Below are positions 49,895 through 53,690 of a DNA stretch of 64,000 nt, piece by piece. The DNA comes from Aequorivita xiaoshiensis. GTDB taxonomy: Bacteria; Bacteroidota; Bacteroidia; Flavobacteriales; Flavobacteriaceae. The position numbers were made by a program, and so were the translations under genes. Where the stretch lies: positions 62,001 through 126,000 of the forward strand of contig NZ_JAIRBB010000001.1 in assembly GCF_022008395.1 (NCBI RefSeq), given 5' to 3'. The notes beneath the pieces are model-generated. The model saw nothing but the letters and a program-made list of their open reading frames with translations. It had not been told where the DNA came from and made no database searches. Each line of letters starts with the position of its first letter. The first letter of the stretch is position 1.

Positions 49895-50110
49895 ATGAAA
49901 AAATTATTTACATTATTTGCTATATCTGCTGTGGCACTTGGTTCTTGTCGTGAAACTAAAACTGAAACCAAAGAAGTAATTCGCGAAGTAGAAGTTGGAA
50001 CTCCTGAAAAAACAGACAACGAGGGGATTTTAGAAAGAGCCGCTAAAAAAGTAGATAAAGAAGTAAATGAAGAAATAGACAAAACAATTGATGAAATCGG
50101 AAACGACTAA
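49895..50110 (+). CDS. Tiny acidic lipoprotein, family member 1
   Basis: This 71-residue lipoprotein has a signal peptide ending VALGSC, then RETKTETKEV and a charged helix ending in acidic residues. It resembles the products at 50161 and 53430 (shared SCRE/SCRD start and Glu/Asp/Lys-rich tail). It is followed 50 nt later by the second copy. The function is unknown. No membrane domain lies beyond the lipid anchor. Confidence 0.8.
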   Translation: MKKLFTLFAISAVALGSCRETKTETKEVIREVEVGTPEKTDNEGILERAAKKVDKEVNEEIDKTIDEIGND

Positions 50111-50160: not shown

Positions 50161-50409
50161 ATGAAAAAATTAACAATGATTGCCTTATTTGCAGGATTCT
50201 TAACAGTTTCTCTTACATCTTGTAGAGATCAAGAAACTAAAGAAGAAACTTTAGAAGAATCTTTAATTGAGGACATGCAAGATAAGGATGCAGATATTAA
50301 AGTAAAAGACGACGGAGACAAGATTAAGATGAAAACCGAAGACGAAAAGGTGAAAATTAAAACCGACGAAGACGGTGATACCAAAATTAAGGTAAAGGAT
50401 AGAAACTAA
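50161..50409 (+). CDS. Tiny acidic lipoprotein, family member 2
   Basis: This 82-residue lipoprotein has a signal ending SLTSC, followed by RDQETKEET. It then has alternating acidic/Lys-rich units (KVKDDGDKIKMK, KVKIKTDEDGDTKIKVK) that look like repeated beta-hairpins or divalent-cation-binding strands. It is 50 nt after the first family member, with no terminator between, and probably cotranscribed. A terminator follows. The function is unknown. Confidence 0.8.
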   Translation: MKKLTMIALFAGFLTVSLTSCRDQETKEETLEESLIEDMQDKDADIKVKDDGDKIKMKTEDEKVKIKTDEDGDTKIKVKDRN

Positions 50410-50433: not shown

Positions 50434-50462
50434 AAGGATGCCTAGAAATGGGCATCCTTTAT
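50434..50462. terminator. Terminator between lipoprotein and repressor genes
   Basis: AAGGATGCC (50434-50442) pairs perfectly with GGCATCCTT (50451-50459) and sits between the convergent ends of the lipoprotein and XRE-S24 genes. Its last bases touch the stop codon of the minus-strand gene. Confidence 0.8.
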
Positions 50463-51229
50463 TATTTCAACCCACTTATTTGTCCTTTTAATTCGTCCAT
50501 AGACTGCTGCAATTGTCTCAGTAAACTACTTTCTGAAGGCTCATCTACACCGAAGCTCAACTTACTATTCACCATCCAAAGCTCTTGAATATCTCTTACT
50601 TTTACTTCTATAGGTAAATAACTTTCGTTTAGTGAAATTAGCCTAATAGACTGAGGGTTTCCTGGTATCTTCTGTAATTTTTTTACTAGTACAGAATCTC
50701 TTAAAACAACAATATAAATTTTTGAATCGGTAGCTTCATTAATGCTTGCTACTGCCCTACCCAAAACCCATTCATTAGGTTTTATATTTGGCAACATACT
50801 ATCTCCTTCTACCTGAAAACCTCTATATGAGGCATTTCTATATTCTGGCAAAGGAATATTAAATGCGGGTAAAGTTTGATACCAGCCTGTATCCTGAATA
50901 TTGTTAGGATATCCAGCTGCAGCTTTTTGATTTACCAAAATTATACTGTCATTGCCATCTGTATCCAAAGTGATAACCTTTGGACTAACATCTCCTCGAG
51001 AAGAATCGATGTGCTTCTCATAACTCTTGCCGTAAAGCCACAACGGATTAATATTAAATTGTGCCATTAACTCCATTACTACTTTACCAGTAATTTTTGT
51101 TTTACCACGCTCAATATCAGCGGTGGTAGACCCAATATCTAAAAGTTCAGCAAACGATTGCTGCGTGTGTCTTTGTTCTTCGCGAATTTTCTTAAAGCGC
51201 TGTGCCTCAATTGTTAGTTTAGATTCCAT
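50462..51229 (-). CDS. XRE-S24 LexA-like transcriptional repressor
   Basis: This 255-residue protein has an N-terminal XRE helix-turn-helix (about 8-65, TQQSFAELLDIGSTTADIERG) and a C-terminal S24 peptidase domain. A self-cleavage site Ala105-Gly106 (KAAAGY), the nucleophile Ser144 (GDSM) and Lys183/184 (VLVKKL) have the spacing of LexA-type autoproteases. It should repress target genes until DNA damage triggers self-cleavage. The start is ATG 51229, because the long upstream frame is the other gene's leader. A consensus promoter lies at 51233-51263. It is divergent from the radical-SAM pair and not part of a prophage. Confidence 0.92.
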   Translation of the reverse strand: MESKLTIEAQRFKKIREEQRHTQQSFAELLDIGSTTADIERGKTKITGKVVMELMAQFNINPLWLYGKSYEKHIDSSRGDVSPKVITLDTDGNDSIILVNQKAAAGYPNNIQDTGWYQTLPAFNIPLPEYRNASYRGFQVEGDSMLPNIKPNEWVLGRAVASINEATDSKIYIVVLRDSVLVKKLQKIPGNPQSIRLISLNESYLPIEVKVRDIQELWMVNSKLSFGVDEPSESSLLRQLQQSMDELKGQISGLK

Positions 51230-51232
51230 ACA

Positions 51233-51273
51233 CAAATATACTTCATTTTGGAATATATCCAAATTAAATTTGG
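51233..51273 (-). promoter_or_regulatory. Promoter and operators of the XRE-S24 gene
   Basis: On the minus strand TTTG (51263-51260), 19 nt and TATATTTG (51240-51233) form a consensus promoter whose start would lie at or just before the ATG, giving a nearly leaderless mRNA. Two palindromes cover it: TTGGA-N5-TCCAA (51248-51262) and CCAAATT-A-AATTTGG (51259-51273). This suggests autoregulation by the repressor. Confidence 0.65.
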
Positions 51274-51303
51274 ATTTTACCCTATATTCTAGGATTATTT
51301 CCT

Positions 51304-51328
51304 TAATTTTGGCAATATTCCAATATTG
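51304..51328 (+). promoter_or_regulatory. Operator-covered start region of the radical-SAM gene
   Basis: TAATTTTG (51304-51311) is a -7 box. The perfect palindrome CAATATT-CC-AATATTG (51313-51328) begins 2 nt later and ends 1 nt before the ATG, so a bound repressor would block initiation. A -33 box was not found. Confidence 0.6.
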
Positions 51329-51329
51329 T

Positions 51330-52613
51330 ATGGATTTTAAAAGAATAAACGAAAAGTTAGAAATACTAGCAGACGCAGCAAAATATGACGTTTCCTGCTC
51401 CTCTAGCGGTAGTAATAGAAAGAACTCAAATAAAGGTTTAGGCAATAGCAACGGCATGGGAATATGCCATAGCTATACCGAAGACGGTAGATGTGTTTCC
51501 TTATTAAAAATACTCTTAACCAATCACTGCATTTTTGATTGCGCTTACTGTGTAACTCGAAAAAGTAACGATATAAAACGAGCTGCTTTTAAGGTTCAAG
51601 AAGTTGTTGATCTAACCATTAATTTTTACAGACGTAATTATATAGAAGGCCTATTTCTAAGCAGTGGAATTTTCAAGAATGCCGATTACACCATGGAGCG
51701 ATTAATTGCAGTGGCAAAAAAGCTCAGGCAAGAAGAAAATTTCAACGGTTATATTCATTTAAAATCTATACCCGGGGCTAGTGATGAATTGATGCGGGAA
51801 GCCGGACTTTATGCAGATAGGCTGTCGGTAAATATTGAGATTCCAACGGAAAAAGGCTTAAAACTACTTGCACCTGAAAAGGATAGAAAGGATTTCATAA
51901 AACCTATGGAAAAGGTGAAAAATGAAATCATTCAGTATAAAAATGAAAAGAAACTTCTAAAAAGAGTTCCCATTTACGCACCTGCTGGCCAAAGCACTCA
52001 AATGATAGTTGGGGCTAGTGGCGAAACCGATGCTGAAATAATGTACACTTCAGCATATTTTTACAAATCGTTTAACCTAAAGCGAGTTTATTATTCCGGC
52101 TACGTTCCAATTAGTAATGACAATCGCCTTCCCACAATCGGATCTGCTGTTCCAATCTTACGCGAAAACAGACTCTATCAAACCGATTGGCTTCTTCGAT
52201 TTTATGGATTTGACGTTCGTGAACTGTTAAACAAAGAACATCCAAATCTAGAGTCGGATATAGATCCAAAACTAAGTTGGGCATTAAGAAATCTAGATCA
52301 ATTTCCTATTGATGTCAATAAAGCTGATAAGAGAATGTTATTACGCGTGCCAGGCTTAGGGCTAAAATCTGTAAATAAAATTATCAAGGCACGCAGATAT
52401 CGAAAATTAAATTGGGAAAACTTAAAATCTATTGGAGCTTCCTTAAACCGAGCTAAATATTTTATTATTTGCGATTCTACTACTTTTGAAACAAAGGATA
52501 GAACCTCCGCCCAACTCAAAAGCATAATTCTATCAAACTCAAATTCTAAGTTTTCGGCAACTTTAAGCAATCAATTAAGCCTTTTCGACAATCACAATAC
52601 ACTATCTGCGTGA
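51330..52613 (+). CDS. Putative DNA modification/repair radical SAM protein (TIGR03916-like)
   Basis: This 427-residue radical-SAM enzyme has the 4Fe-4S cysteines C67-x3-C71-x2-C74 (NHCIFDCAYC) and a Gly-rich SAM-binding region. A C-terminal helix-hairpin-helix (about 325-350, KRMLLRVPGLGLKSVNKIIKA) suggests DNA binding. The family is linked to uracil-DNA glycosylase-type proteins and is proposed to act in DNA repair, with no defined reaction. The start is ATG 51330, preceded by a -7 box and palindrome. The stop overlaps the next gene's GTG by 4 nt. The divergent LexA-like gene supports damage regulation. Confidence 0.9.
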   Translation: MDFKRINEKLEILADAAKYDVSCSSSGSNRKNSNKGLGNSNGMGICHSYTEDGRCVSLLKILLTNHCIFDCAYCVTRKSNDIKRAAFKVQEVVDLTINFYRRNYIEGLFLSSGIFKNADYTMERLIAVAKKLRQEENFNGYIHLKSIPGASDELMREAGLYADRLSVNIEIPTEKGLKLLAPEKDRKDFIKPMEKVKNEIIQYKNEKKLLKRVPIYAPAGQSTQMIVGASGETDAEIMYTSAYFYKSFNLKRVYYSGYVPISNDNRLPTIGSAVPILRENRLYQTDWLLRFYGFDVRELLNKEHPNLESDIDPKLSWALRNLDQFPIDVNKADKRMLLRVPGLGLKSVNKIIKARRYRKLNWENLKSIGASLNRAKYFIICDSTTFETKDRTSAQLKSIILSNSNSKFSATLSNQLSLFDNHNTLSA

Positions 52614-53377
52614 AAACTATTTTAAAATACGACGGTTCTTTTGAAGGTCTATTATCAGTTGTGTTTTATGTTTATGAACACAAATTAAAAGAGGTTTCAA
52701 TTATAAAAGATAAGCATTACGAACCTAACTTTTTCGACCATAGCATAGCAATACTTTCTGAACCAAAAAAAGCCAAGCGAGTCTGGCAAGGCTTGTCTAA
52801 GAAATTATCACCTAAAGCGAAGACTAAGCTTTACAAAGCATTTTTAAGTGAAACCTTAAAAATTGAAAATACTATTCTTTATTATATAAGAAAAGCGTTA
52901 TCCGCAAGTGTAAGTATAGAAAATGATTTTACCGATTCGGAAATTCTACATATAGAAAAAACCGTAAAAAAGGTAGACCGAGAAAAACACAGGATGGATG
53001 CATTTGTACGATTTCAACTTACTAAGGACGGAATATACTTCGCTACAGTAGAACCAGATTTTGATGTTTTACCTCTAAATGCACGCCACTTCAAAACTAG
53101 ATATGCAGATCAAAGGTGGTTGATTTACGATTTAAAAAGAAATTATGGAATATTTTACGACTTATTAGAGGTTCAGACCATTACCTTAGAGCTAGCTAAA
53201 GATATTAATAGAGGAGATAAAGCTTCTATATATTTTACTTATGAAGAAATAGAGTTTCAAAAGCTATGGTTCAATTACTTTAATAGTAGTAATATAGTTT
53301 CAAGAAAGAATATAAAGCTACATATTAAGCATATTCCTAAGCGGTATTGGAAATTTTTAACAGAAAAAAAATTTTGA
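52610..53377 (+). CDS. TIGR03915-like DNA repair partner protein
   Basis: This 255-residue protein belongs to the family that always accompanies the TIGR03916 radical-SAM enzyme. In other bacteria the same domain is fused to a uracil-DNA-glycosylase-like domain. Here it is unfused. It starts with GTG overlapping the upstream TGA (GTGA), so the two are translated together. Conserved-looking parts are KKVDREKHRMDAFVRFQ, DFDVLPLNARHFKTRYADQRW and the basic C-terminus HIKHIPKRYWKFL. No catalytic motif can be named. Confidence 0.88.
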   Translation: MKTILKYDGSFEGLLSVVFYVYEHKLKEVSIIKDKHYEPNFFDHSIAILSEPKKAKRVWQGLSKKLSPKAKTKLYKAFLSETLKIENTILYYIRKALSASVSIENDFTDSEILHIEKTVKKVDREKHRMDAFVRFQLTKDGIYFATVEPDFDVLPLNARHFKTRYADQRWLIYDLKRNYGIFYDLLEVQTITLELAKDINRGDKASIYFTYEEIEFQKLWFNYFNSSNIVSRKNIKLHIKHIPKRYWKFLTEKKF

Positions 53378-53429: not shown

Positions 53430-53690
53430 ATGAAAAAAATATTTTTATCACTTGCAGCTCTTGCTTTAGTTGCTTCTGTTTACTCTTGTAGAGAAACTAC
53501 CGAAGTAAAAGTTGACGAAACTGCTGAGTCTATTGAAACTGAAACTGAAAACGCATTAGATAACACTGGTGACGCTATTGATGACGCTGTTGATGCAACA
53601 GGAGATGCAATGGAAGATGCAGGAGATGCTATCGAAGATGCTGCTGAAGACACTAAAGATGCTGTAGAAGACGCAACTGACGGTCAGTAA
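53430..53690 (+). CDS. Tiny acidic lipoprotein, family member 3
   Basis: This 86-residue lipoprotein has a signal ending SVYSC, then RETTEV, and a long acidic helix with repeated Asp-Ala-(Thr/Met/Ile)-(Gly/Glu)-Asp units, such as GDAIDDAVDATGDAMEDAGDA (split: GDAIDDAVDATG, DAMEDAGDAIEDA). The composition suggests an extended acidic rod on the membrane surface. It resembles the genes at 49895 and 50161. A terminator follows. The function is unknown. Confidence 0.82.
   Translation: MKKIFLSLAALALVASVYSCRETTEVKVDETAESIETETENALDNTGDAIDDAVDATGDAMEDAGDAIEDAAEDTKDAVEDATDGQ

Follow-up and report, generated by a model that had tools for sequence, protein, structure and literature searches.

A putative SOS control locus in Aequorivita xiaoshiensis with phased GGA-N5-TCC boxes between a LexA-type repressor gene and a radical-SAM/DUF4130 operon

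We analysed a 64,000-nucleotide stretch of the Aequorivita xiaoshiensis genome (RefSeq assembly GCF_022008395.1, contig NZ_JAIRBB010000001.1, positions 62,001 to 126,000 of the forward strand), referred to here as the window, focusing on a LexA-type repressor gene and a two-gene operon that encodes a radical-SAM protein of the TIGR03916 family and a TIGR03915/DUF4130 protein. The genome around this locus comprises 3.06 Mb in 83 contigs and, among the matches listed, the closest relative by radical-SAM protein is the flavobacterium Aequorivita sinensis (98% identity). The repressor and radical-SAM genes are divergent with an intergenic gap of exactly 100 bp (51230-51329); this layout had been proposed in an initial annotation made from the sequence alone, and both the coordinates and the family matches agree with it. 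The locus contains the following features:

50462-51229, minus strand: LexA-type repressor, 255 amino acids, with HTH_3 and S24 peptidase domains, assigned to the GGA-N5-TCC group of non-canonical Bacteroidetes LexA proteins
51233-51240, minus strand: predicted -7 element of the repressor gene, TATATTTG, 3 nt from the repressor ATG
51250-51260, no strand: putative operator box 1, GGAATATATCC, perfect, inside TTGGA-N5-TCCAA (51248-51262), in the predicted repressor promoter
51272-51282, no strand: putative operator box 2, GGATTTTACCC, with a single mismatch; 40 of 45 divergent relatives have the perfect form
51292-51302, no strand: putative operator box 3, GGATTATTTCC, perfect, ending beside the predicted -7 element of the radical-SAM promoter
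51304-51311, plus strand: predicted -7 element of the radical-SAM operon, TAATTTTG (TAnnTTTG), after box 3
51311-51321, no strand: putative operator box 4, GGCAATATTCC, with a single mismatch, located where this -7 element ends and over the predicted transcription start; 8 of 45 divergent relatives have the perfect form
51330-52613, plus strand: radical-SAM protein, TIGR03916/COG4277-type by NCBIfam, 427 amino acids, with ATG 51330 corresponding to the invariant M1 of 54 aligned proteins
51528-51551, plus strand: CX3CX2C iron-sulphur motif (C67, C71 and C74), present in 54 of 54 sequences
52572-52586, plus strand: QLSLF, residues 415-419 of 427, predicted from a sequence match to be a sliding-clamp-binding motif
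52610-53377, plus strand: TIGR03915/DUF4130 protein, 255 amino acids, GTG start, with a 4-base overlap with the radical-SAM stop

The repressor matches PF01381 (HTH_3, 27.2 bits) and PF00717 (Peptidase_S24, 47.3 bits), both over cut-off, and gave no match to solved structures in a sequence search. For comparison we used repressors of at least 45% identity (72 family members), set apart from rows of 26-35% identity; rows below 45% were taken as a second repressor group and left out. In an alignment of 79 repressors at or above this threshold, with the window's own protein counted twice, Ala105, Gly106, Ser144 and Lys183 are invariant and Lys184 is a lysine in 78, which bears out the residues named in the initial annotation. 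This supports the view that the repressor is LexA-like and apparently competent for cleavage. It is present in a single copy, with one match in its own genome at E <= 1. The Ala-Gly cleavage site, the Ser-Lys dyad and the SOS logic are shared with canonical LexA of the E. coli type, which differs in having a winged helix and another operator in place of the CI-like helix-turn-helix found here (PMC8565304).

Non-canonical LexA proteins have been described in Bacteroidetes, one group of which binds GGA-N5-TCC (Sanchez-Osuna et al. 2021, PMC8565304). For this group, binding was demonstrated in other species by electrophoretic mobility shift assay (EMSA) and induction by mitomycin C was demonstrated by RT-qPCR (quantitative reverse-transcription PCR); half-site substitutions or a change in spacer length abolished binding in EMSA. 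The repressor of the window has the same S24 peptidase and CI-like helix-turn-helix, the same operator, and boxes in its own promoter, and the published proteins likewise have two or more sites in several promoters (PMC8565304).

The putative control unit in the 100-bp gap consists of four phased GGA-N5-TCC-type boxes. Boxes 1 and 3 are perfect, boxes 2 and 4 each carry a single mismatch, and successive starts are separated by 22, 20 and 19 bp. The initial annotation had instead described three perfect palindromes as functional sites and had overlooked the perfect box 3 (GGATTATTTCC) as well as the one-mismatch boxes 2 and 4 (GGATTTTACCC and GGCAATATTCC). All three palindromes exist (51248-51262; 51259-51273, with a full extent of 19 bp at 51257-51275; and 51313-51328), and an operator role is retained for the first, which is box 1 plus flanks and the sole palindrome of the three that is a box. 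The second is made up of two half-boxes that face each other, the right one of box 1 and the left one of box 2, and the third shares bases with box 4. When the gap was shuffled 5000 times with dinucleotide composition preserved, palindromes with arms of at least 7 and a spacer of at most 4 appeared at least once in 11% of shuffles and twice in 0.8%. Of the same shuffles, 2.4% contained at least one GGA-N5-TCC box and 0.04% at least two; TTGGA-N5-TCCAA never appeared.

We examined conservation in the loci of the best 80 of 319 matches to the radical-SAM protein, a set that represents the near end of the family. A repressor gene lies divergent to the radical-SAM gene within 400 bp in 45 of these loci; the other 35, at least one of which (L127) ends at a contig end, were excluded from the gap counts. 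The 45 divergent gaps contain 132 perfect boxes, whereas 100 shuffled sets averaged 1.49 and reached 6 at most. Every gap has at least one perfect box, 44 have two or more, and the spacing between boxes is 18-23 bp in 82 of 87 cases. The motif of the first palindrome, TTGGA-N5-TCCAA, is kept in 27 of the 45 divergent relatives, the second palindrome in none and the third in one (the near-identical L050). The second and third palindromes were rejected as operators on their lack of conservation, two spellings of each having been tried.

A second set, consisting of the best 30 of the 72 family repressor loci (own genome included), gave a perfect GGA-N5-TCC box near the repressor gene in 30 of 30, mostly at about +21, +43 and +63 from the repressor start and less often at +82. 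The radical-SAM gene adjoins the repressor in 11 of these loci. The remaining 19 have two perfect boxes (13 loci), one (three loci) or three (three loci), and box spacing departs from the norm in a few loci that lack the radical-SAM neighbour (L039 and L046). Across a family sample of 199 genomes, 72 have the repressor (at least 45% identity), 46 have the radical-SAM gene and 31 have both. The two genes are divergent neighbours in 25 of these 31 genomes, divergent but 4-6 kb apart in two, far apart in two, and on different contigs in two.

Two observations concern individual relatives. No perfect GGA-N5-TCC box was found in the 150 bp upstream of the pair at L075, L078, L083, L087, L095 and L097 (Lacinutrix, Psychroserpens, Jejuia, Winogradskyella and Kordia). 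In the family genome G032 (L255: 1464-2393), the repressor gene is separated by three boxes from a DUF4130 gene of reduced length. A radical-SAM gene was not found; its position is taken by an open reading frame (ORF) of roughly 61 amino acids (about 1542-1727, by-eye translation) with QLSLF at its end.

In a flavobacterium, the published -7 consensus is TAnnTTTG (PMC9723704). Across 46 gaps (the 45 divergent relatives and the window), TAnnTTTG begins exactly 12 nt past a box start in 39. On the other strand, 30 of the 46 have a repressor-type element whose start precedes that of box 1 by 16 or 17 nt, and 13 have none by this pattern. The boxes are therefore predicted to occupy the spacer region of the repressor promoter and to bracket the radical-SAM -7 element, in keeping with the earlier placement of sites over both promoters, and such a placement would suit repression through exclusion of RNA polymerase. 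The repressor mRNA may be leaderless, with the predicted -7 element ending 3 nt from the start codon (51227-51240); an element begins within about 6 nt of the repressor start codon in 22 of the 46 gaps.

The radical-SAM protein matches TIGR03916 over its full length (677 bits against a cut-off of 343.5; model positions 1-415 of 415). A match to HHH_3 is weak and under the Pfam cut-off, and the only match to solved structures by sequence is to RuvA, over positions 251-369. We aligned the window's protein with 53 of 79 proteins chosen for diversity (54 in total). Three further cysteines upstream of CX3CX2C, C23, C46 and C55 (51396-51551), are invariant in all 54 sequences and may serve as ligands of zinc or of another iron-sulphur cluster. 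Near the C-terminus, Q415, L418 and F419 are invariant, and all 54 family proteins (own included; identity to the window's protein 74-98%) carry a Q[LIVM]x[LM]F motif among their final 30 residues, with none in the other 21190 residues. Within the window's ORFs (18642 residues) QLSLF is the single instance of this motif, and the bacterial clamp-binding consensus is QL(S/D)LF (PMC9690074). We recovered 28 reading frames from 30 phylum loci (own and other family members included), and 24 have this motif, even where the rest of the tail differs. A SplB-type protein of the same putative regulon, described below, ends in QLKLF (L133: 1575-2645), with QMKLF in five relatives' loci (four sites); DinB carries QINLF, and such a motif is absent from the nuclease and DnaE of the regulon. 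Taken together, these patterns strongly suggest that the radical-SAM protein docks on DnaN. We found no mention of clamp docking by the TIGR03916-TIGR03915 pair in the literature searched.

The partner protein matches TIGR03915 with 257.5 bits over model positions 1-243 of 243, and its gene adjoins the TIGR03916 gene. Of 296 genomes sampled across the phylum, TIGR03915 occurs in 96, TIGR03916 in 96 (a few of the radical-SAM matches are partial) and both in 94, according to listings compared by hand. The co-occurrence in 94 of the 98 genomes with either family suggests that the two proteins work as a unit. The initial annotation had placed the operon in a family linked to uracil-DNA glycosylases (UDGs), and the family assignment holds. 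The NCBIfam name of TIGR03916 is 'rSAM_link_UDG' (that of TIGR03915 being 'SAM_7_link_chp', DUF4130), and a COG1573-COG4277 operon is listed in the published LexA network and described as a two-gene UDG-based system (PMC8565304); both would favour a base-excision system with a UDG as its second gene. However, both models are far over cut-off here with no UDG fusion. The UDG domain (PF03167) has no match in the window's DUF4130 protein and is absent from the 24 Pfam families matched by 56 members. DUF4130 frames in 79 of 79 relatives' loci are 247-264 amino acids from the expected start (248-309 from stop to stop), leaving no space for a fusion, and the genome's single UDG-family gene is located on a different contig. 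A UDG role for the DUF4130 protein was rejected on the absence of the domain and the length of the frames, and we consider a base-excision reading of the pair unlikely.

We modelled the DUF4130 protein from 56 sequences (pLDDT 86.6, pTM 0.80), as sequence searches gave no match to solved structures. The best Foldseek matches of the predicted model are PAP phosphatase 8a8k (E 4.9e-4, TM-score 0.41, root-mean-square deviation (rmsd) 9.9), PggH (7.7e-3) and RecJ (3.5e-2); these DHH-family matches have TM-scores of at most 0.41 and an rmsd near 10. With VIA-align 2, 8a8k scored Z 9.1 (rmsd 5.0, 195 aligned) and RecJ Z 8.1, followed by further RecJ, Cdc45 and RecJ2 rows under Z 8. The similarity covers residues 1-213, and rows 1-26 are all DHH proteins (RecJ, Cdc45 and others). 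A Z near 8 can by itself reflect a common arrangement, and the weight lies in the consistency of the rows. Viral DHH proteins were also at the top of a viral structure library (E 1.2e-3, none under 0.001).

Motifs were counted in 84 of 86 DUF4130 sequences (length 240-299 amino acids), and the alignment used 55 of 79 proteins chosen for diversity. The letters DHH occur in one of the 84 sequences and GGH in none, and the A1 consensus lacks DHH. An N-terminal D-G-[ST]-[FYW]-x-G pattern, found by regular expression in 60 of the 84, resembles what we take to be DHH motif I minus some aspartates, in a register of our own reading. The DUF4130 protein is thus predicted to have a DHH/RecJ/Cdc45-like fold without the catalytic triad. 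It would resemble the DHH/DHHA1 phosphoesterases (RecJ, NrnA and PAP phosphatase) and Cdc45 in predicted fold, and differs from the phosphoesterases in keeping at most part of motif I and in lacking a significant profile match. We found no mention of a DHH-like fold for DUF4130 in the literature searched.

The initial annotation had further described the locus as a small, self-contained, damage-inducible module. The reading as a damage-inducible repressor is right in essence, and has already been published for the same repressor family in other species (PMC8565304). In a self-contained module, the repressor would act through three separate palindromes on its own gene and the radical-SAM pair and on nothing else. 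The single repressor copy fits this, as does the stricter motif TTGGA-N5-TCCAA, which points to this locus alone: it has seven perfect matches in the genome, and the other six lie inside reading frames. The stricter motif was rejected as a regulon motif for that reason. We also scanned the genome for TGGA-N5-TCC followed by a second box within 5-35 bp, a pattern that requires T before the left GGA and misses arrays without it. This gave four forward and three reverse matches. Besides this locus, the forward places stand before a DnaQ/GIY-YIG nuclease gene, a SplB-type radical-SAM gene and a dinB-dnaE pair, making four in all. The published regulon contains the same kinds of gene: dinB alongside a gene for DNA polymerase III alpha, SplB, a GIY-YIG exonuclease, the COG4277 operon and the repressor itself (PMC8565304).

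The tandem pattern extends to the genus. Seven further genus genomes have 4-6 forward tandem matches each with none in the forward control (5-15 bp gap), where the own genome has three compared to one. Four genomes of other families have 0-2 tandem matches compared to 1-3 in the control, two of the four exceeding the control by one. Among 27 tandem-box loci from relatives, in which the two strands of one site can count as two loci, there is an exonuclease gene in eight (five sites), a SplB-type gene in six (four sites) and dinB in one. The tandem boxes before distant SOS-type genes argue that the module is not self-contained and, together with the lack of conservation of the second and third palindromes, they make control confined to this locus very improbable.

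A defence-system reading was also rejected, as PADLOC gave no match for the radical-SAM/DUF4130 pair and two weak HTH/control-protein models for the repressor. We also consider it very improbable that the protein is a domesticated or resident prophage repressor with a cargo operon instead of a host SOS regulator. In favour of this reading, it matches phage repressor PHROGs (phrog_4, 1.4e-23) and these two PADLOC models, and the published family has a CI-like N-terminus (PMC8565304). Against it, 45 of 80 loci share the arrangement and 31 of the 80 have small neighbouring genes of a similar kind; the DUF4130 protein has no PHROG match at E <= 0.01 and the radical-SAM protein only two weak ones; and the other tandem-box places precede host repair genes.

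The reading that we favour, with a probability of roughly 0.88, is that this is an autoregulated SOS control locus of an Aequorivita-like flavobacterium, with a distant regulon and a clamp-docked radical-SAM protein that has a DUF4130 partner. Several observations weigh against it. Two of the four boxes in the gap carry a mismatch, and half-site substitutions abolished binding in the published EMSA (PMC8565304); recA itself was not induced in the GGA-group species studied there. Fifteen of the 46 family genomes in which the radical-SAM gene occurs have no repressor reaching 45% identity. Where the operon lies away from the repressor, a perfect box occurs at most 150 bp upstream in only 8 of 35 loci. 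The link between operon and repressor therefore depends on lineage, the pair having left this control or being controlled otherwise in several genera. In the regulon, the reversed-pattern control of the own-genome scan also matches (one forward and two reverse), and the second dinB-type gene of the genome has no perfect box in the stretch examined. Twelve of the 27 relatives' tandem-box loci match no own regulon protein; six of these are from other families. Three of the twelve were examined in more detail: a dnaE-type gene follows the boxes in two of them, and no SOS gene is visible in the third. One family supplies 57 of the 94 genomes with paired TIGR03915 and TIGR03916. The predicted clamp binding is based on a five-residue motif, which the remaining four of the 28 phylum-set proteins lack in this form (near forms include QISLL, QLTLL and QLTLW), and the predicted radical-SAM structure, at pLDDT 60.7, was not good enough to be used. 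When profiles of DUF4130 were compared with the NrnA and RecJ sets, the E values were 0.091 and 0.57, against 0.4 and 0.7 for two unrelated controls, leaving homology unsupported.

Under this SOS reading, the repressor would bind up to four phased boxes in the 100-bp gap of an undamaged cell. Boxes 1 and 2 would occupy the spacer of the repressor promoter and the sequence immediately upstream, and boxes 3 and 4 would flank the radical-SAM -7 element. It would thereby shut down its own gene and the radical-SAM gene and, remotely, the dinB-dnaE, SplB-type and DnaQ/GIY-YIG nuclease genes. After DNA damage, RecA filaments would lead the repressor to cut itself at Ala105-Gly106, and the genes would be switched on. 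The induced radical-SAM protein, with its CX3CX2C motif, weak HhH match and QLSLF tail, would reach damaged DNA by docking on the sliding clamp, accompanied by the DUF4130 partner with its predicted DHH/RecJ-like fold.

A more specific and tentative proposal, which we regard as possible but somewhat doubtful, is a clamp-docked repair machine: QLxLF would deliver the SOS-induced enzyme to stalled forks in the manner of translesion polymerases, and DUF4130, as a RecJ/Cdc45-like DHH fold without a nuclease site, would hold or present the damaged strand. SplB spore photoproduct lyase-like proteins offer a parallel in radical-SAM DNA repair, in SOS regulation and, for the SplB-type protein of this genome, in a clamp-like tail; they differ from the pair, which belongs to the TIGR03916 family and has a co-occurring partner.

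Relative to the published GGA-group systems, the regulator stands here back to back with a COG4277-type operon across a conserved array of up to four boxes, and the partner is a DUF4130 protein without a UDG domain. The operator anatomy of a published SOS system is thereby sharpened to up to four boxes about two helical turns apart, two divergent promoters and a fixed distance from box to -7 element. The flavobacterial proteins examined do not bear out the "UDG" label under which the operon was published. A widespread pair also gains a testable handle in its predicted clamp docking, its predicted DHH-like partner and its probably damage-inducible promoter; a putative clamp-docked radical-SAM pair with a DHH-like partner is the lead most worth pursuing.

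The cluster is flanked on both sides by short lipoprotein-like ORFs. Three ORFs of a single type (MKK...SCR[ED], with acidic tails) lie at 49895-50110, 50161-50409 and 53430-53690, and at least one ORF of this type occurs near the cluster in 31 of the 80 relatives' loci, often on both sides.

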